Source: Novosphingobium sp. ZN18A2 (lineage in GTDB: Bacteria > Pseudomonadota > Alphaproteobacteria > Sphingomonadales > Sphingomonadaceae). Taken from it: 64,000 nt of DNA. Below are positions 27,821 to 36,906 of this stretch, piece after piece. The notes beneath the pieces were generated by a model that was given only the letters and a program-made list of their open reading frames with translations, had not been told where the DNA came from and did no database searches. The position numbers were made by a program, and so were the translations under genes. The stretch spans positions 2,790,001 to 2,854,000 of the forward strand of contig NZ_CP136651.1 in assembly GCF_036784765.1 (NCBI RefSeq), given 5' to 3'. Every line of letters begins with the position of its first letter. Position 1 is the stretch's first letter.

Positions 27821-28669
27821 GCTGTGGTGACATTTTAGGGATTCACGGCGGCTGAGATTTCTGATTCAACGCTGGCTTTTGGAGGCTGGTGTGGAAGGCG
27901 AGGTTCTCAGGGACGATCAGTGGGAGCGGTTGCGCGAGTTTGTGCCTGGCGGGCGCAAGGGCAAGCGCGGCCCGCGCAGCGATGGACGGCGGTTTCTGGA
28001 TGCCTTGCTGTGGCTGGCGCGTTCAGGTGGGCGCTGGCGCGATCTGCCAGAGAAGTTCGGGCCGTATCAGACCGCGAAGCGACGCTATTATCGCTGGGTC
28101 GAGCAAGGGGTGATCGACCGGATTTTCGAGGCGGTGTCCGACGATCCTGACATCGAGTGGCTGGCGATCGATGCGACCGTGATCCGCGCTCAGGCCCAAG
28201 CTGCCGGAGCACGGGTAAAAAGGGGGGCGCTCAAGCCCAGGCTCCTGGGCGATCCAGAGGAGGGTTCGGCACCAAGGTCCACGCCGTCGTCGACGCCCTC
28301 GGCTTGCCGATCCGCTTCATCCTCGGTCCCGGCCAGCAGAACGACATGGCGCCGGCCTGCGACCTGATCCGAGGCATCCCGGCTGGCCAGGTTCTGGCCG
28401 ACCGGGCCTACGATGCCGACAGCTTGCACGACTTGATCTACGAGCAAGGCGGCGAACCAGTCATCCCGCCCCGCCGCCACCGCAAATACCAGCACCACTA
28501 TGACCGCATCGCCTACAAACAGCGCTGGGGCATCGAGGGTTTCTTTGCCAAGCTCAAGCAATGGCGGCGCATCGCAACTCGCTATGACAAGCTCGCCGCC
28601 AATTTCCTCGGATTCGTCAAACTCGCCAGCATCATGCTTTGGCTGAAATGATTAAATCGTCACCACAGC
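27821..28669 (+). mobile_element. IS5-family (IS427-group-like) insertion sequence, 849 bp
   Basis: Terminal inverted repeats GCTGTGGTGAC (27821-27831) and GTCACCACAGC (28659-28669) are perfect over 11 bp. The element is flanked by CTAG at 27817-27820 and 28670-28673, a 4-bp target duplication of the kind made by IS427-type elements. It carries one transposase in two overlapping frames. Intact ends, a perfect target duplication and an intact frame pair suggest a recent, possibly active copy. Confidence 0.88.
27879..28651 (+). CDS. IS5-family DDE transposase, made by -1 frameshift from two overlapping frames
   Basis: Frame A (27879-28367, TTG start) encodes the N-terminal domain (LRDDQWERLREFVPGG...) and the first catalytic Asp in LAIDATVIRA. 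Frame B (28157-28651) is shifted by -1 and encodes the second Asp in VLADRAYDADSL and the Glu in QRWGIEGFFAKLKQ. The frames join at an A5G6 run near 28217-28227 (GTAAAAAGGGGGGCG), a plausible slippery site in which AAA and GGG can re-pair one base back. The fused product would be about 258 aa, the family length. Programmed frameshifting is known in this group. A disabling mutation is the alternative, but the homopolymer at the exact junction favours frameshifting. Confidence 0.85.
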
Positions 28670-29410: not shown

Positions 29411-29662
29411 ATGAAGCCAGTCACCTACACGCGGGCAGCACTGAAGACCCTACGCAGGATGCCTGCGGACGTAGCGGAACGGATCATAGGGAAAATCGAG
29501 CAATATGCCGCCGCCCCAGCCTCGCAGGCCAACAATGTTACGGTTCTCAAGGGACGAGAAGGTATCCGTTTAAGAGTGGGTGATTGGCGTGTGATCATGA
29601 ATGATGACGGCGTTGTTCTGGCGGTTCTCGATATAGGACCGCGCGGAAGCATCTACGGTTGA
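29411..29662 (+). CDS. RelE/ParE-superfamily toxin
   Basis: 83 aa. It opens KPVTYTRAALKTLRRMP with the basic helix, continues with VTVLKGREGIRLRVGDWRVIM and ends in a short LDIGPRGSIYG, the compact ribosome-dependent mRNA nuclease fold. It is followed, with 11 bp between its stop and the preferred antitoxin ATG, by a helix-turn-helix antitoxin gene. That is a toxin-first order as in higBA. Only 7 bp separate the -10 box from the ATG, so the mRNA may be leaderless or nearly so. Confidence 0.85.
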   Translation: MKPVTYTRAALKTLRRMPADVAERIIGKIEQYAAAPASQANNVTVLKGREGIRLRVGDWRVIMNDDGVVLAVLDIGPRGSIYG

Positions 29663-29673
29663 TGGAGGCAGAT

Positions 29674-30015
29674 ATGGGTGAAATGATTTCGATCCCGCTT
29701 GAGGAATACCGCAGCTTGCAGGCCGCTGCCGAAGAACTGGCCGATCTGCAAGCTTATGACCGTGCCTTGGCGCAGTTGGCAAACGGCGATGAGGAACTGC
29801 TTCCTGCCGAATTGGTGAAGCGCATGCTCTCCGGCGAAAGCCCTCTACGCGTCTGGCGGGAATACCGAGGTCTTACCCAGACCGCCCTCGCTGAAGCTTC
29901 GAGCGTCAACCGGGTGCAGATCGCGGATATCGAGTCTGGACGGAAGAGCGGTTCGATTGAGACGGTCAGGAAGCTGGCTGAAACCTTGGGCATTACTCTC
30001 GATGAATTGATTTAA
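29674..30015 (+). CDS. Xre-family (helix-turn-helix) antitoxin
   Basis: 113 aa. The N-terminal segment (ISIPLEEYRSLQAAAEELADLQAYDRAL) probably wraps the toxin. The C-terminal domain (about residues 55-113) is an Xre helix-turn-helix: LRVWREYRGLTQTALAEASSVNRVQIADIESGRKSGSIETVRKLAETLGITLDEL. I choose the ATG at 29674 because GGAGG (29664-29668) is 5 nt upstream; earlier starts at 29659 and 29662 overlap the toxin stop. It represses the pair's promoter and neutralises RelE. Confidence 0.87.
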   Translation: MGEMISIPLEEYRSLQAAAEELADLQAYDRALAQLANGDEELLPAELVKRMLSGESPLRVWREYRGLTQTALAEASSVNRVQIADIESGRKSGSIETVRKLAETLGITLDELI

Positions 30016-30103
30016 GAGCAAATCCATTCTGCAAAGACAGCACTTGCCGCCCGCTCGTTAAGTGCAACAATCAGTCTTCACCTGTCTGAGTAGCTTTCGT
30101 CAC

Positions 30104-30200
30104 AAGAAAAGCCGGTTCCCGAAGGAACCGGCTAAAATGATTTTGTGGATCAAATCCTTGTTAACGGAAAGACCACGCTGCTTGGACTGCTACATCAAGC
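30104..30200 (-). ncRNA. tracrRNA (short form, about 97 nt)
   Basis: Read on the minus strand. The anti-repeat begins at about 30196 (GATGTAGCAGTCCAAGCAGC) and pairs 17 nt without a break with the array repeat; its 3' side CCGTTAAC pairs with the repeat start GTTGCGG apart from one bulged U. A nexus-like hairpin GGAT-TTG-ATCC follows. A Rho-independent terminator closes it: GCCGGTTCC-TTCG-GGAACCGGC (30132 to 30111) then TTTTCTT. The promoter TTGACG-N17-TAACGT (30235-30230 and 30212-30207) predicts a start near 30200. Position and orientation (upstream of cas9, opposite strand) match other tracrRNAs. It guides RNase III processing and Cas9 loading. Confidence 0.88.
30111..30132 (-). terminator. 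tracrRNA terminator with UUCG tetraloop
   Basis: A 9-bp perfect stem GCCGGTTCC/GGAACCGGC closes a TTCG loop in minus-strand reading, followed by TTTTCTT. The T-run is on the minus-strand side, which sets the direction of transcription. Confidence 0.88.
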
Positions 30201-30206
30201 AAAACT

Positions 30207-30235
30207 ACGTTAGACTGCTGAAAACGCCGCGTCAA
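30207..30235 (-). promoter_or_regulatory. Promoter of the short tracrRNA
   Basis: Minus-strand TTGACG (30235-30230), a 17-bp spacer, TAACGT (30212-30207). The predicted start is 3-5 nt before the anti-repeat. Confidence 0.6.
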
Positions 30236-30268
30236 CGATCTGCGCAAATTGGCCCAGACCACATATGA

Positions 30269-30304
30269 GACTCAGCAGTGCAAGCAGCCTGGGCCAACCG
30301 CAAC
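30269..30304 (-). repeat. Degenerate CRISPR repeat upstream of the tracrRNA (crRNA-like half of a natural single guide)
   Basis: 31 of 36 positions match the array repeat. In minus-strand reading the first 14 nt, GTTGCGGTTGGCCC, are unchanged, while changes cluster further in. The unchanged part is what pairs closest to the guide in the crRNA:tracrRNA duplex. On one minus-strand transcript the order is 12-nt guide, this repeat, 72-nt linker, tracrRNA anti-repeat, so repeat and anti-repeat can fold back on each other (8-bp GCTGCTTG and 6-bp ACTGCT blocks plus the lower GTTGCGG stem). Confidence 0.75.
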
Positions 30305-30316
30305 TAAAATGGAGGA
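30305..30316 (-). other. Guide (seed) of the proposed long tracrRNA
   Basis: In minus-strand reading TCCTCCATTTTA lies immediately 5' of the degenerate repeat, the place of the PAM-proximal seed in a crRNA. The same 12 nt occur on the plus strand at 30438-30449 in the cas9 promoter. The match stops exactly at 12 nt; the next four bases all differ. Confidence 0.7.
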
Positions 30317-30352
30317 AACCACACGCACCTCCGCTTCAGCCTCTTGCAGTAA

Positions 30353-30391
30353 GGTTTGGACGCTCACCCAAGCCATCGACAGGTTCGATGG
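30353..30391. other. Two hairpins in the tracrRNA-cas9 gap
   Basis: GGTTTGG/CCAAGCC (30353-30359 with 30368-30374) and CCATCGA-CAGGT-TCGATGG (30373-30391) can form stems. They share two bases, so they are mutually exclusive or stacked. Neither has a T-run. They may be 5' structure of the long tracrRNA or a regulatory site of cas9. No ORF with family resemblance lies here. Confidence 0.4.
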
Positions 30392-30419
30392 CAGCAAGAT
30401 TGCATTCCGGATAGCATCG

Positions 30420-30448
30420 TTGACACAACGGATCAACTCCTCCATTTT
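30420..30448 (+). promoter_or_regulatory. Probable cas9 promoter
   Basis: A perfect -35 box TTGACA (30420-30425) lies inside the hairpin CGTTG-ACA-CAACG. A 17-bp spacer leads to CATTTT (30443-30448) as a weak -10. Transcription would begin near 30455, 35 nt before the cas9 ATG. Other -10 candidates in the AT-rich 30455-30469 stretch remain possible. Confidence 0.5.
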
Positions 30449-30450
30449 AG
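30438..30450 (+). promoter_or_regulatory. Self-target site of the long tracrRNA in the cas9 promoter
   Basis: TCCTCCATTTTAG (30438-30450) is the exact inverted partner of CTAAAATGGAGGA (30304-30316). As a protospacer seed it would read TCCTCCATTTTA with GAAAACAT on its 3' side as PAM region. It overlaps the proposed -10 box, 40 bp before the cas9 start codon. Confidence 0.68.
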
Positions 30451-30489
30451 AAAACATAAATTGTATTAAGAACGACGGGAGCCAAGAGC

Positions 30490-33400
30490 ATGGTTGATCA
30501 GCAGGGCACAACCCAAAAGCGCTGGCGCCTCGGAATCGACCTGGGAACCAATTCGATCGGCTGGGCAGCTTTGTCGCTTGGTGCCAATGGCAAGCCCGAT
30601 GGCCTGCTCGACATGGGCGTGCGGATTTTCTCCGACGCACGCGATCCGCAAAGCCGGGAATCCAATGCCGCCACCCGTCGCGGGCCGCGCGGGGCGCGCC
30701 GCAACCGCGATCGTTATCTGCAACGGCGCGAACAATTTCTGCGCACGCTAACAGAAGCCGGACTATTGCCCGCGGACAAGGCGGCACGCCAAGCACTTGA
30801 GCGGCTCGACCCATGGATCTTGCGCGCCCGCGCCCTGACCGAACCGCTAGACCGACATGAAGTCGGACGCGCGCTGTTCCATTTGCAGCAGCGGCGCGGC
30901 TTCAAGTCCAACCGCCTGACAGACAAGGGCAGCGATGAAAAGGGCGCAGTGGAAAGCGGTGCGGCGGCCCTTCGCGCCGATATGGATGCTGGCGATGCAG
31001 CAACGCTTGGTGAGTTAAAGGGGAACCCGCGCCAAACCATCGCCGAAGAAAACCACAGCCTGCCCAAGGGTGCGCGTAGTCCAATGCCGCTGGCCCGCGT
31101 CCGTACGCACAGCGAAGGCGCGAAGATGGTCTACGACTATTATCCGCTACGCGAGATGATCGAGCAGGAATTCGACGCGATCTGGCAAGCCCAGGCGCGC
31201 CATCACCCGGATGTCATGACCGAAGATGCGCGCACCGCCCTGCGCGACGTTCTCCTGTTCCAGCGCCCGCTCAAGCCGCAGCCGGTCGGGCGCTGCACTT
31301 TCGAGAATGAAGAAGAACGCGCCCCCAGCGCCCTGCCCTCGGTCCAGCAGCTGCGCATCTATCAGGAACTCAATAATCTGCGTGTCTCCGCACGGCCGGG
31401 CGAACCGCAGTTGCCCCTCTCCCCGGCGGAGCGCGACGAGCTGGCCGGGATTGCGCTGAGAAAGGTCAAATTTAGCCTGCGCGATATGCGCGGAGCGCTG
31501 GGCTTGACCGAGGCCGCCATCTTCAGCATCGAAGCGGGCGGTCGCGATTTTCTGGATGGCGACAAGACGCACGACATCATCACCAGGAACCGCAAGAACA
31601 ATACTGGAAACTGGCCGGACTGGGCCGAGTTGCCGCTGGCGGAGCAGGACGCGCTCACCGAAATCCTGCTGGGCCGCGTCGCGCCGGGCCGGGGCAGCCA
31701 CCAGGCGGTGGTCGCGACGCACGAACGCGTGGTCGCACGCATCGTCGCAGGTCTCGGCCTGTCCGAAAGCCGGGCACGCGAATTGCTGGCAGCGAAGGAC
31801 GAGGATGAGATCGCCGCCTTCCTTGCCGAACGGTATGGGCTGGAGCCTTCCCATGCCGCCCGCATTGCCGGCCTGCGCCTGCCCGATGGCCACGGCCGCC
31901 TCAGCCGCACGGCAGGCGACAAAGTGCTGGCGCAACTGATCGAGCCGGACGCCGATGCTCGCTTGCGGACCTATGACCGCGCCGTCGTCGATGCCGGATA
32001 CTTCCACCACAGCCTGAAGGGCACCGGCGAGGTGTTCGACCACCTGCCCTATTACGGCGTGGTGCTCGAACAGTCGGTTGCCTTCGGCTCCGGCGATGCG
32101 AGCGACATCGAGGAAAAGCGGATCGGCAAGCTGGCCAACCCCACCGTCCATGTCGCGCTCAACCAGTTGCGCCGGGTGGTCAACGCGCTGATCGACCGCT
32201 TCGGCCCACCTGCGGAAATCGTGGTGGAACTGTCGCGCGATCTGCCGCTGGGCGCGTTCGACTTGGGCAAGTTAAAGAACAAGCAAAACGAGAACCGGAA
32301 GGCCAATGAAAAGCTTTCTGAAAGGCTTGCCGAGTTTGGAGCACCAAACAATTATAATAACCGCCTGTTTCTGCGCCTTTGGGATGAACTGGATGCGTTA
32401 GGCCGCAAATGCCCCTTCACCGGGCAGCACCTGTCGCAAGAACTGCTTGTCAGGAGTCTCAAAGGTTCCGGCGAACTCGAGGTTGAACACATCCTCCCCT
32501 TCTCCCGCACGCTCGACGATGGCTTTAACAACAAGGTGCTGGCCCTGCGCGAAGCCAATCGCCGCAAGGGCAGGCTCAGCCCATGGGAAGCGGTGGAAAA
32601 CGGCATTTTCGACCGCGAGACGATCGAAAACTCTCTGCGCGATCTGCCCCCTGCGAAGGCCTGGCGCTTCAGCCCCGATGCGATGGAGCGGTTCGAGAAA
32701 GAGGAACGCGATTTCCTCGACCGGCAGTTGAATGACAACAAGAATATCTCGCGCCTCGCCGCGCAATATCTCAAAAGCCTGGGTTCCGATGTCTGGGTCA
32801 TCAACGGCCGTCTCACCGCCGATCTGCGCCACCATTGGGGGCTGAATAAGGGCTGGCGTGGAGACAACCGCAACCCGGCGGATAGCGAAGCGGATGAGGT
32901 AAAGAAAAACCGCAACGATCACTGCCATCACGCAGTCGACGCCTTCGTGATCGCCTGCACCGACCGCGCGATGGTCAAGGCCGCGGCGGATGAGGCGAAG
33001 AAAGTGGAAGAGGAATTCACCGCCGGGAGGCGCGATCATCGACGCCTCCTGGCTGGGTTGCCCGATCCCTTCGATGGCTATCTGCTTGCGGTGAAGGAGG
33101 CAGTCGGCAAAATCGTGGTCAGCCACAAGCCCGATCACGGCATTGAAGGCAAGCTGCACGAAGCCACCAATTACGGCGTTGTGCAAACACAGGCGGGCGA
33201 GACTCGGCTCGCCACCCGCAAGCCCATTATCGACCTTACCCCCGGCGAAGTAGCCAGTATCGGCGATGACCGCATTCGCCGCGAACTTGTCGCACTGACC
33301 GATGGACTTGGCGACAAGGAGCGCAAGCAGGCATTGCTCGAATACAGCCAGCGCACCGGCCACAAGCGCGTGCGCGTCCACAAGGTGCAGGCCAGTTTCG

Positions 33401-33870
33401 AACGGATCGCGCACGGGCCGGACAGCAAGGGCAAATCCCACACCCGCGCTGTCATTCCGGGCGACAACTATTGTATGGACATCATCGAAACGCCGGACGG
33501 CAAATGGCACGGCGTCGCCGTCACCCGATTTCAGGCGCACAAGTTCAAGAAGGATGATGCGTGGAAGACACTCTGGCGCAAGGACTACCCCGATGGGCGC
33601 CTTACCATGCGCGTTCGCAATGGCGACCTGCTGATGCTAGAACATGAAGGCGAAGAAAAGGTGATGCAGGTGGTGCGCCTTAACCCGTCCGGCAATCGCC
33701 TTTATCTTGCGCCTGCTTATGAAGCAGGGAAATTCGCGGATCGTCACAAGGATACAGACGATGAATTCCGCTGGGATCTCGCCGGCATAAGCGGGCTGAA
33801 ACCCCGCAAGGCTCGCCTCGTGCGCGTGACACCCGATGGGCAGTTGCTGGATCCCGGACCTCCCGCCTAA
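30490..33870 (+). CDS. cas9: Type II-C CRISPR-associated endonuclease Cas9
   Basis: 1126-aa RNA-guided DNA nuclease. RuvC-I is RLGIDLGTNSIGWA with catalytic D17. The arginine-rich bridge helix covers about residues 56-82. RuvC-II is EIVVELSRDL with E580. The HNH core is LEVEHILPFSR with H667 and N690 in REANRRKG. RuvC-III is HHAVDAFVIA with H814 and D817. All catalytic residues are present, so the enzyme looks active. A wedge/PAM-interacting region fills the C-terminus from about residue 900. Size and the absence of csn2 and cas4 place it in subtype II-C. GGGAG lies upstream of the ATG. The PAM cannot be read from sequence alone. Confidence 0.97.
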   Translation: MVDQQGTTQKRWRLGIDLGTNSIGWAALSLGANGKPDGLLDMGVRIFSDARDPQSRESNAATRRGPRGARRNRDRYLQRREQFLRTLTEAGLLPADKAARQALERLDPWILRARALTEPLDRHEVGRALFHLQQRRGFKSNRLTDKGSDEKGAVESGAAALRADMDAGDAATLGELKGNPRQTIAEENHSLPKGARSPMPLARVRTHSEGAKMVYDYYPLREMIEQEFDAIWQAQARHHPDVMTEDARTALRDVLLFQRPLKPQPVGRCTFENEEERAPSALPSVQQLRIYQELNNLRVSARPGEPQLPLSPAERDELAGIALRKVKFSLRDMRGALGLTEAAIFSIEAGGRDFLDGDKTHDIITRNRKNNTGNWPDWAELPLAEQDALTEILLGRVAPGRGSHQAVVATHERVVARIVAGLGLSESRARELLAAKDEDEIAAFLAERYGLEPSHAARIAGLRLPDGHGRLSRTAGDKVLAQLIEPDADARLRTYDRAVVDAGYFHHSLKGTGEVFDHLPYYGVVLEQSVAFGSGDASDIEEKRIGKLANPTVHVALNQLRRVVNALIDRFGPPAEIVVELSRDLPLGAFDLGKLKNKQNENRKANEKLSERLAEFGAPNNYNNRLFLRLWDELDALGRKCPFTGQHLSQELLVRSLKGSGELEVEHILPFSRTLDDGFNNKVLALREANRRKGRLSPWEAVENGIFDRETIENSLRDLPPAKAWRFSPDAMERFEKEERDFLDRQLNDNKNISRLAAQYLKSLGSDVWVINGRLTADLRHHWGLNKGWRGDNRNPADSEADEVKKNRNDHCHHAVDAFVIACTDRAMVKAAADEAKKVEEEFTAGRRDHRRLLAGLPDPFDGYLLAVKEAVGKIVVSHKPDHGIEGKLHEATNYGVVQTQAGETRLATRKPIIDLTPGEVASIGDDRIRRELVALTDGLGDKERKQALLEYSQRTGHKRVRVHKVQASFERIAHGPDSKGKSHTRAVIPGDNYCMDIIETPDGKWHGVAVTRFQAHKFKKDDAWKTLWRKDYPDGRLTMRVRNGDLLMLEHEGEEKVMQVVRLNPSGNRLYLAPAYEAGKFADRHKDTDDEFRWDLAGISGLKPRKARLVRVTPDGQLLDPGPPA

Positions 33871-33926
33871 CACACTGTTAACCATATTCTGCGACAACCG
33901 GTGCGCTTCATTTGGGAGTGGACCTG

Positions 33927-34835
33927 ATGCAGCAGCGCATCGTCGAAATCGCAAGCGACGGGATACACCTGTCCGCCTTCCGCGGCTTCATGCGAATTTC
34001 CCGTGCGGATGAGGAACTGGGCCGCGTGCCCTTTGCCGACATCGGCGCGGTCATCCTGCGCGGGCATGGCAGCACGCTTTCGGTCAATCTGTGTACGCGC
34101 CTGTCTGATGCCGGCGCACCGCTGGTCATCTGCGGCTCGAACCAGTCCCCCGCCTCGCTGCTCTGGCCAGTGCGCGGACACTACGAACAGGGCCGCCGCA
34201 TGGAAGCGCAGGCAGAGGCCTCCCGCCCCTTGCGCAAGCGTGCATGGCGCGACCTCGTCAGCGCCAAGATCGCAGCTCAGGCGGCAGTTCTCGAAGCGAC
34301 CACGGGCAAGGATGCGCGCCTCGATCGGATGGCGCGGGAAGTGAAATCAGGCGATAGTGACAATCTCGAAGCACAGGCCGCGCGGCGCTATTGGAATGCA
34401 CTGTTCGGGCCGGATTTCCTGCGCGATCGGCAGGCAGAAGGCATCAATTCCGCGCTCAATTACGGCTATACCGTACTTCGCGCGGGCACTGCTCGCTCAA
34501 TCCTTGCCGCGGGGCTTCACCCATCGCTTTCCATCCATCACACCAGCCGGGGCGATGCCCTGCGCCTAGCCGACGATCTGATGGAACCGTTCCGGCCCTG
34601 GCTCGACCTGCTTGTTTGGCGAATGACCCGCGAAGAACCCGTTTCGGAACTTACAAGCGCGATGAAAGGCCATCTCGCCGAAGTGCTCACGCTCGATCTT
34701 CCGGGGACTGATGGTGTCAGCCCCATCCAGATCTGGCTCGATCGCCTGGCGCTTTCCTGGGCAAAGATCTGCATGGGTGAAGCCGGAAAGCTGGACCTGC
34801 CCGGCCAGCCCTCGCCGCTGGAACTCAGCACGTGA
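33927..34835 (+). CDS. cas1: CRISPR integrase Cas1
   Basis: 302 aa. It opens QQRIVEIASDGIHLSAFRGFM (N-terminal beta domain). Metal ligands are expected in LEAQAARRYW (Glu), SIHHTSRGDA (His) and ADDLMEPFRPW (Asp/Glu), all present. It inserts new spacers with Cas2. I use the ATG at 33927, with GGGAG upstream and an N-terminus aligning with type II Cas1; the TTG at 33912 adds five residues. Ends overlapping the cas2 GTG (GTGA). Confidence 0.95.
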   Translation: MQQRIVEIASDGIHLSAFRGFMRISRADEELGRVPFADIGAVILRGHGSTLSVNLCTRLSDAGAPLVICGSNQSPASLLWPVRGHYEQGRRMEAQAEASRPLRKRAWRDLVSAKIAAQAAVLEATTGKDARLDRMAREVKSGDSDNLEAQAARRYWNALFGPDFLRDRQAEGINSALNYGYTVLRAGTARSILAAGLHPSLSIHHTSRGDALRLADDLMEPFRPWLDLLVWRMTREEPVSELTSAMKGHLAEVLTLDLPGTDGVSPIQIWLDRLALSWAKICMGEAGKLDLPGQPSPLELST

Positions 34836-35236: not shown

Positions 35237-36779
35237 GATTTAGCAGTCCAAGCAGCGCGGGCCAACCGCAACAGCCGTCAAGCGCCTATCTCCGCTGCCA
35301 GTGATTTAGCAGTCCAAGCAGCGCGGGCCAACCGCAACAAGGCGGCCCAGCGCGGCGTTGCTGATTTGGATTTAGCAGTCCAAGCAGCGCGGGCCAACCG
35401 CAACATCACCAGCCTCCATGCGCTTCGCTGGTTGATTTAGCAGTCCAAGCAGCGCGGGCCAACCGCAACTCACCGACGTGAATGGCATCACCTATTACGG
35501 ATTTAGCAGTCCAAGCAGCGCGGGCCAACCGCAACGCACATGACGCGAGGCAACGCAGCGCAACGATTTAGCAGTCCAAGCAGCGCGGGCCAACCGCAAC
35601 CAGCGTCCTCGTCACGCCATCTATAGAAAGGATTTAGCAGTCCAAGCAGCGCGGGCCAACCGCAACTGACGTGGAAGTTCTCCGGCTCGAGGTAGGCGAT
35701 TTAGCAGTCCAAGCAGCGCGGGCCAACCGCAACGATCACACCGATCTCGAATTTCAGGGGATCGATTTAGCAGTCCAAGCAGCGCGGGCCAACCGCAACT
35801 GGCGGGATCGGGCCATGTAGAACCCGGTCGATTTAGCAGTCCAAGCAGCGCGGGCCAACCGCAACGCTTACGTCCGTCTCATCTCGATCAGCGACGATTT
35901 AGCAGTCCAAGCAGCGCGGGCCAACCGCAACGAGAGGGCCAGCAGCGCGAGCACCGCCAGCGATTTAGCAGTCCAAGCAGCGCGGGCCAACCGCAACTAG
36001 GGCAACCATGCCCATCTCCTCGATTGTGATTTAGCAGTCCAAGCAGCGCGGGCCAACCGCAACGCTGCCCTTGCCTGCGCATCGCCACTATCAGATTTAG
36101 CAGTCCAAGCAGCGCGGGCCAACCGCAACACCGATAACGGACGCGCCTTCGCCAGCAAGATTTAGCAGTCCAAGCAGCGCGGGCCAACCGCAACTCAGGT
36201 TTTCTCCGCCTTCCAGGCGATCGCGATTTAGCAGTCCAAGCAGCGCGGGCCAACCGCAACAAGTTGGCGCGACTGCCGGCGTGCCGCCTGATTTAGCAGT
36301 CCAAGCAGCGCGGGCCAACCGCAACGCCAAGCGGTTATTCAAGACGCTTGGCAGGGATTTAGCAGTCCAAGCAGCGCGGGCCAACCGCAACCTTCCATCT
36401 TTACGCCGTGTATCTTTGCGTGATTTAGCAGTCCAAGCAGCGCGGGCCAACCGCAACGGCCTTCCTGATGCCGATCAATGACGATCAGATTTAGCAGTCC
36501 AAGCAGCGCGGGCCAACCGCAACGCGCGATGTAGTTCGCCGTGCCTGCCGCCGATTTAGCAGTCCAAGCAGCGCGGGCCAACCGCAACAAGTACTTTATG
36601 GTAGTGGTCACCCTTTAAGATTTAGCAGTCCAAGCAGCGCGGGCCAACCGCAACGGCCGGGATATCCTCGGGCTCAATCCCGTTGATTTAGCAGTCCAAG
36701 CAGCGCGGGCCAACCGCAACCAGATGCGGAACAGCGCCGCGCCATAGTCGGATTTAGCAGTCCAAGCAGCGCGGGCCAA
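35237..36779 (-). CRISPR. CRISPR array, 24 repeats (last one truncated) and 23 spacers
   Basis: The 36-bp repeat (plus strand starts GATTTAGCAGTCC, ends CCAACCGCAAC) is identical in all 23 complete copies. Spacers are 30 nt, except 29 nt for numbers 3, 5, 14, 16 and 20 and 31 nt for number 7, counted from the cas2 side. Repeat 24 (36751-36779) keeps 29 nt and lacks CCGCAAC. The crRNA sense is the minus strand: the repeat then starts GTTGCGG, as in II-C systems, pairs with the minus-strand tracrRNA, and ends in TGCTAAATC, an extended -10. With TTGGCC 17 bp upstream, each repeat carries a possible promoter, giving crRNAs with about 24 nt of spacer. Confidence 0.97.
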
Positions 36780-36906
36780 GGGACTCACCGATGACGAGAT
36801 CGCCAGAGTGGTCGGTTGGACCGCCAAACGCGTCTCCAAAATCCGTGCCAGATATGTCGACGAAGCCCGCGTCGTGATCAGCCTGGTCGAACGCCTGAGC
36901 GCGTGA
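36778..36906 (+). pseudogene. C-terminal remnant of a tyrosine-type integrase
   Basis: 42 codons before TGA: KGLTDDEIARVVGWTAKRVS, then KIRARYVDEARVVISLVERL. GW followed by RYVD fits the end of tyrosine recombinases, where Trp replaces the second His and Tyr is the nucleophile. The Arg and His-x-x-Arg parts are missing. The fragment starts directly at the truncated 24th repeat and ends 68 bp from the tRNA-Met 3' end, the expected site of an island integrase gene. Confidence 0.72.

Follow-up and report, generated by a model that had tools for sequence, protein, structure and literature searches.

A predicted natural single-guide RNA for repression of cas9 in a type II-C locus of Novosphingobium sp. 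ZN18A2, with counterparts in related loci

Our analysis of a 64,000-nucleotide stretch of the Novosphingobium sp. ZN18A2 chromosome (the window) suggests that its type II-C CRISPR-Cas locus encodes a natural single guide resembling tracr-L, with which Cas9 would repress its own promoter. We put the probability of this reading, which draws on sequence and on analogy with a known system, at roughly 85%. What the sequence itself provides is the anatomy of the putative guide, a unique match, a predicted fold, a co-change of guide and target, a flank common to the targets and a candidate internal promoter element at a constant position. An earlier note on this DNA had proposed, for a II-C system, a natural single guide whose short seed matches the cas9 promoter, and the proposal is supported by the comparison of related loci, where 15 of 31 candidates have such a match against 3 of 930 control comparisons, and where a guide and its target appear to have changed together.

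The locus gave profile matches to TIGR01865, TIGR03639 and TIGR01573, and comprises the following genes and array:

30490-33870, plus strand: cas9, 1126 aa, with both HNH and RuvC domains found
33912-34835, plus strand: cas1, type II family TIGR03639
34832-35164, plus strand: cas2
35237-36786, minus strand: CRISPR array of 24 repeats, the minus-strand repeat being GTTGCGGTTGGCCCGCGCTGCTTGGACTGCTAAATC

Between cas9 and the array there is no further cas gene, neither csn2 nor cas4. Because cas9, cas1 and cas2 are followed by 24 repeats, Cas9 has both nuclease domains and csn2 is absent, we classify the locus as type II-C. Its Cas9 is divergent, with the best relative at 53% over aligned columns. 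A pair of genes for a ParE-like toxin and an HTH antitoxin (29411-30015) directly adjoins the terminator of the tracrRNA, and two overlapping ORFs at 27879-28651, with matches to IS4/5-type transposases (DUF4096, DDE), probably represent a single insertion sequence whose reading is split over two frames.

The putative single guide is laid out on the minus strand, upstream of cas9:

30305-30316, minus strand: 12-nt guide seed TCCTCCATTTTA, on the 5' side of the putative single guide and unpaired in the predicted fold
30269-30304, minus strand: degenerate CRISPR repeat GTTGCGGTTGGCCCAGGCTGCTTGCACTGCTGAGTC, 36 nt, 31 of them as in the array repeat and the first 14 nt identical
30197-30268, minus strand: linker of 72 nt, the loop of the single guide in the predicted fold
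30230-30235, minus strand: TTGACG inside the linker, putative -35 of a short tracrRNA
30160-30196, minus strand: tracrRNA antirepeat, leading into the conserved core GTTAACAAG (30165-30157)
30104-30159, minus strand: 3' part of the tracrRNA, with a hairpin and an intrinsic terminator (10-bp stem, 30133-30110)

This order of seed, degenerate repeat, linker and tracrRNA, already described in the earlier note, held when the sequence was re-checked. At its 3' end the degenerate repeat has lost the TGCTAAAT found in the array repeat, which resembles an extended -10. A weak -10 (TAACGT, 30212-30207 on the minus strand) stands 17 nt beyond the TTGACG of the linker, and a promoter scan revealed no clear sigma-70 promoter in the window from which the long form could start. 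The tracrRNA has no match to a tracr family in Rfam; a sub-threshold match to ncS025 (Burkholderia sRNA 25), at 30103-30203 on the minus strand, spans the whole model, and ncS025 might itself be tracr-like or the match might be due to chance.

When the minus strand from 30316 to 30104 is folded, its minimum free energy is -81.9 kcal/mol against -60.1 for shuffled sequences (z = -5.2), and the folding check recommended at the outset returned a single-guide structure with a free seed: the 12 nt are unpaired, the degenerate repeat pairs along the antirepeat, the linker loops and the terminator hairpin stands separate. A 107-nt form without the degenerate repeat adopts a tracr-only fold. About half of the folded loci, ZN18A2 among them, pair nucleotide 1 of the repeat with tracr-core position +5, and the guide is largely paired with the 3' part of the tracrRNA in the minimum-energy structures of several (L033, L109, L181).

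The second copy of the seed sequence lies on the other strand, in front of cas9:

30438-30449, plus strand: target, identical to the 12-nt guide and placed 40 bp ahead of the cas9 start, within the cas9 promoter region
30420-30425, plus strand: TTGACA, putative cas9 -35, 12 bp upstream of the target
30450-30458, plus strand: PAM-side flank GAAAACATA, which fits GNNAACNT; a putative PAM only

In a pattern search of the complete 3.3-Mb genome the 12-mer occurs in exactly two copies, guide and target, which bears out the plus-strand occurrence already reported and makes it the only other copy; the reversed 12-mer, used as a control, has zero copies in the same genome. The probability of such a match by chance had been estimated at about 1 in 100,000, and our recalculation (12 nt, fixed end, about 150 bp, both strands) gives about 2 in 100,000, which is of the same order. 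The placement of the target behind the TTGACA at 30420 was correct, and the target can safely be said to overlap the core promoter region of cas9. That it also overlaps the -10 box, as had been claimed, is something that we infer from a poor hexamer (CATTTT, 17-nt spacing, 3/6), in a cas9 upstream region where a strict promoter scan found no plus-strand promoter.

The decisive evidence for the predicted pairing of guide and promoter is comparative. Cas9 loci came from whole genomes sampled at the levels of order, family, class and phylum, from GTDB contigs and from plasmids, and 165 related type II-C loci were kept, near-duplicates being dropped from the main set, not from the last 20 added; the G922 family contributed no additional homologue. 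Two features were required of candidates: a minus-strand tracr core close to cas9 and, on the 5' side of this core at a distance of 25-260 nt, a start similar to the first 14 nt of their own array repeat or, for loci in which no array was found, of any collected repeat. They were picked without regard to targets, and the match was defined as the longest exact word directly 5' of the repeat start, sought from -600 to +30 of cas9. A tracr core near cas9 was found in 128 loci, 31 of which have a degenerate repeat start, with none detectable in 97. Fifteen of the 31 candidates have an exact match of 9-12 nt to their own guide upstream of cas9, of 12 nt in ZN18A2, L033, L046 and L171, of 11 nt in L052, L053, L095, L109, L113, L125, L126 and L193, of 10 nt in L096 and of 9 nt in L181 and L197. 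Guides compared with the regions of other loci gave words of at least 9 nt in 3/930 cases, and shifted positions within the same loci in 19/713. In every one of the 15 positive loci the longest shared word stops at 0 or +1 nt relative to where the repeat begins, and the sequences of guide and target differ from locus to locus. Since the final candidate rule was fixed after the pattern had already been noticed in some of the loci, the argument is carried by these controls and not by the rule. Earlier and looser scans gave the same picture, with matches of 10-12 nt followed by a gap down to about 7-8 nt, and in them repeat-like starts on the plus strand (n=15) had no match of 9 nt or more. A word search that ignored the repeat gave noisy results, owing to palindromes and to matches that can extend one base into the repeat.

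Other loci come close to the rule or depart from it. L103 is an extra 11-nt case with a more diverged repeat, and L034, L118, L077, L098 and L048 match at 10-11 of 12 positions, with flanks that resemble those of the exact cases. A degenerate repeat kept without its match, which the earlier note had regarded as contrary to its proposal, does occur in a few loci: L044, L114, L116 and L179 retain the repeat while giving no convincing match, a situation that fits decay or other targets. Several of the other apparent failures amount to one or two mismatches and retain the common flank motif. The closest view of a guide and its target changing together comes from L109 and L181, whose Cas9s are 79% identical and whose regions can be aligned: read on the plus strand, the guide is CAACAAACTTC in one locus and CAACAGACTTC in the other, and the target has the same A-to-G difference, the evidence for co-change being this one pair of loci and one shared change. 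Together with the different match that each of the 15 loci has of its own, this pair answers in the affirmative the question of covariation that the earlier note had raised.

The targets have further sequence in common around the match. The base adjoining the seed on the target 3' side, among nine flank bases examined, is a purine in 15/15 positive loci, and the motif [AG]GGN[AT]T, derived from the same flanks on which it was scored, is present in 7/15 against 0.06 expected (0/20,000 random draws). The flanks of ZN18A2, L197 (GCGAACGT) and L171 (GCAAACTT) all fit GNNAACNT, a likeness noticed post hoc in three flanks. The likeness of some flanks to ATTGA may come partly from overlap with a -35 (TTGAC), as in L096. 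The array spacers of ZN18A2, L109, L052, L096 and L125, searched against phages and/or plasmids, gave matches at the level of chance, with the exception of a Ruegeria phage protospacer for L109 with the flank CTGGTATTC, a single weak case; six spacer patterns gave two matches in viral contigs, of 19-20 nt only and chance-like, and the phage, plasmid and viral-contig searches with its spacers yielded no PAM for ZN18A2 Cas9. Promoter-like elements recur as well. Within 45 nt of the target, 9/15 loci have a TTGAC on the plus strand (1.4 expected). On the minus strand, 11/15 loci, ZN18A2 included, have a TTGAC that precedes the tracr core by 55-58 or 67-70 nt (1.2 expected); with its fixed spacing in the linker, this second TTGAC is a putative promoter element of the short tracrRNA. 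The target is 22-149 nt before the cas9 start in most loci, among them ZN18A2; in L033, L171, L053 and L197 it is 316-416 nt before the called start, and the promoter that would be repressed is less certain there for that reason.

We propose that a single locus could encode two forms of tracrRNA. The short form, made from the linker promoter, would serve normal crRNA-guided immunity. The long form would start further upstream and contain the guide and then the degenerate repeat, and because this repeat is predicted to fold back on its own antirepeat, the long form would be a natural single-guide RNA. Cas9 is not known to cut at a match as short as 12 nt. Carrying the long form, it would be directed to the cas9 promoter by a PAM-proximal seed of 11-12 nt, a match sufficient for binding and too short for cutting, so that Cas9 would occupy the promoter and repress cas9-cas1-cas2. 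The outcome would be a negative feedback on the level of Cas9. The match lengths in type II-C loci, 9-12 nt, agree with the 11-nt match of tracr-L in Streptococcus pyogenes (PMC8616872). Transcription of a long form, its loading into Cas9, binding without cutting and repression are predicted here by analogy with that RNA.

Other explanations of the same sequences have to be weighed against autorepression. The degenerate repeat could be a fossil of an array, of the kind from which tracrRNA genes arise, with a 12-nt match that is there by chance. The 97 of 128 loci with a tracr core and no detectable degenerate repeat are compatible with this idea, as are the few loci with a repeat and no match, which decay would be expected to produce. 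It is nevertheless contradicted by the 15 of 31 matches that end exactly at the repeat edge, a frequency that excludes chance given the 3/930 of the control, and chance fails to explain the common target flank or the co-change of guide and target, so we consider a fossil very unlikely. The guide could also have another or an additional target, namely the promoter of the long RNA itself or a divergent pair of promoters for cas9 and the long tracrRNA. This is suggested by L033, whose target is just upstream of a good minus-strand promoter (TTGACT-N17-TACTCT) able to make the long RNA, and by L171, whose target is close to a minus-strand TATAAA, but it is unlikely as a general account, since the short distance to the cas9 start in most loci, ZN18A2 included, and the plus-strand TTGAC that often stands beside the target point to cas9.

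A word common to two regulatory regions is typical of operators, and the 12-mer might be the binding site of a protein regulator at two divergent promoters. We rejected this explanation, which no result of the analysis favours and which is scarcely credible for a word that varies between loci, has its 3' end always at the repeat edge and is accompanied by a common flank on the target side only. Alternatively, the long RNA might guide Cas9 to RNA, or base-pair as an sRNA, in the manner of the scaRNAs of Francisella and Neisseria; PMC13431127 describes a type II-C scaRNA of Neisseria meningitidis that is sgRNA-like and regulates the efeO mRNA. In ZN18A2, however, as wherever the target is on the plus strand, the guide shares its sense with the cas9 transcript and is unable to pair with cas9 mRNA. 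Targets are found on both strands among the positive loci (8 plus, 7 minus), which fits DNA and not mRNA targeting, and they share a PAM-like flank. Targeting of mRNA was rejected on these grounds, and we regard it as extremely improbable.

Autorepression of Cas9 by a natural single guide is a mechanism already known from type II-A. tracr-L is the natural single guide of the S. pyogenes type II-A system (Workman et al. 2021, via PMC8616872 and PMC11417352), and these two sources describe an 11-nt match to the cas promoter and binding without cutting. Its occurrence in type II-C seems to be new, since PMC8616872 places tracr-L in some II-A systems and reports its absence from other subtypes, and since full-text searches of journal papers, without those of most subscription titles and without Workman et al. 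2021 itself, found no II-C case. Like type II-A tracr-L, ZN18A2 would have a long tracr form with its own guide and a short form from a putative internal promoter, and it has a seed match of about 11 nt to the cas promoter beside a putative PAM, with binding without cutting predicted. As in RNAs of the tracr-L type, a guide and a repeat-like sequence lie 5' of the antirepeat and are predicted to fold as a single guide, and the PAM-proximal seed ends at the repeat edge. Unlike tracr-L, the ZN18A2 element belongs to a II-C cas9-cas1-cas2 locus with an array read opposite to cas9, and its guide and promoter sequences are unrelated; the upper stem in II-C is a recognisable degenerate array repeat, and the elements are scattered on the II-C Cas9 tree. 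In the strict sense, which reserves the name for II-A loci homologous to streptococcal tracr-L, ZN18A2 falls outside the group. Given the II-C locus, and guides and promoters that differ even among II-C relatives, the element would work like tracr-L and is not demonstrably the same gene.

Other small RNAs share some of these features. The scaRNA of Francisella novicida (type II-B) redirects Cas9 to repress transcription by partial complementarity, but it targets lipoprotein-gene regions and works as a scaRNA:tracrRNA pair, whereas ZN18A2 would use one RNA aimed at the cas promoter. The scaRNA of N. meningitidis is likewise a CRISPR-associated small RNA of a type II-C system with an sgRNA-like structure; in contrast to what we propose for ZN18A2, it base-pairs with efeO mRNA with no detectable Cas9 contribution in vivo, and the accessible part of PMC13431127 reports no seed match to a cas9 promoter. 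CreA-type RNAs and regulatory mini-arrays of type I systems (PMC9458426) also combine a degenerate repeat outside the array with a guide for transcriptional repression by an effector. These are Cascade-based and apart from tracrRNA, whereas in ZN18A2 repeat and tracr would be one RNA.

On a quick tree of II-C Cas9 the positive loci are scattered, and setting them against the other labelled rows takes at least 8 changes; among them are Sphingomonadales, a Rhodobacterales MAG, Phreatobacter, a relative of Zavarzinia and an Acidovorax MAG from the Betaproteobacteria. A long tracrRNA with a built-in address for the cas9 promoter seems, judging from such matches, to be present in about 15 other bacteria as well, and since many sister loci are without it, the element must have been gained or lost often. 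In L171 a compact hairpin RNA (GTTGCGAGTGGATCCTTTTGGCAGGGTCCTCTCGTTAACAAG...) at -527 to -400 from cas9, with a poor match to the array repeat, stands beside a normal tracr core at -156, with the 12-nt match at -406; it looks like a dedicated natural sgRNA gene. In L045 the guide region 5' of the degenerate repeat and the sequence upstream of cas9 (-116) share an 18-nt identity that leaves a gap of 2 nt to the repeat start; it looks as though copying of the promoter had produced a new guide, which was then altered at its seed end. A standalone degenerate repeat about 190-240 nt before cas9 in L043 is on the plus strand, convergent with the tracrRNA, and has no match nearby for its guide, and L050 has a second tracr-like copy of antirepeat and core downstream of cas9 (+7144, plus strand).

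On balance we favour the broader view that autorepression by natural single guides is a recurrent layer of control of type II-C Cas9 that Alpha- and Betaproteobacteria have gained or redirected on many occasions, with a guide and promoter pair particular to each lineage, split off in some as a compact sgRNA gene (L171) and with new guides that are maybe copies of the promoter (L045). If our reading of the locus is true, repression of Cas9 by its own natural single guide would recur in type II-C with a different sequence each time, and would be no streptococcal or II-A oddity. The many natural pairs of seed and PAM would then lend themselves to the study of how short a match permits Cas9 to bind without cutting, the target flanks would hint at the PAMs of uncharacterised II-C Cas9s, and L171 and L045 would suggest how natural sgRNA genes arise.
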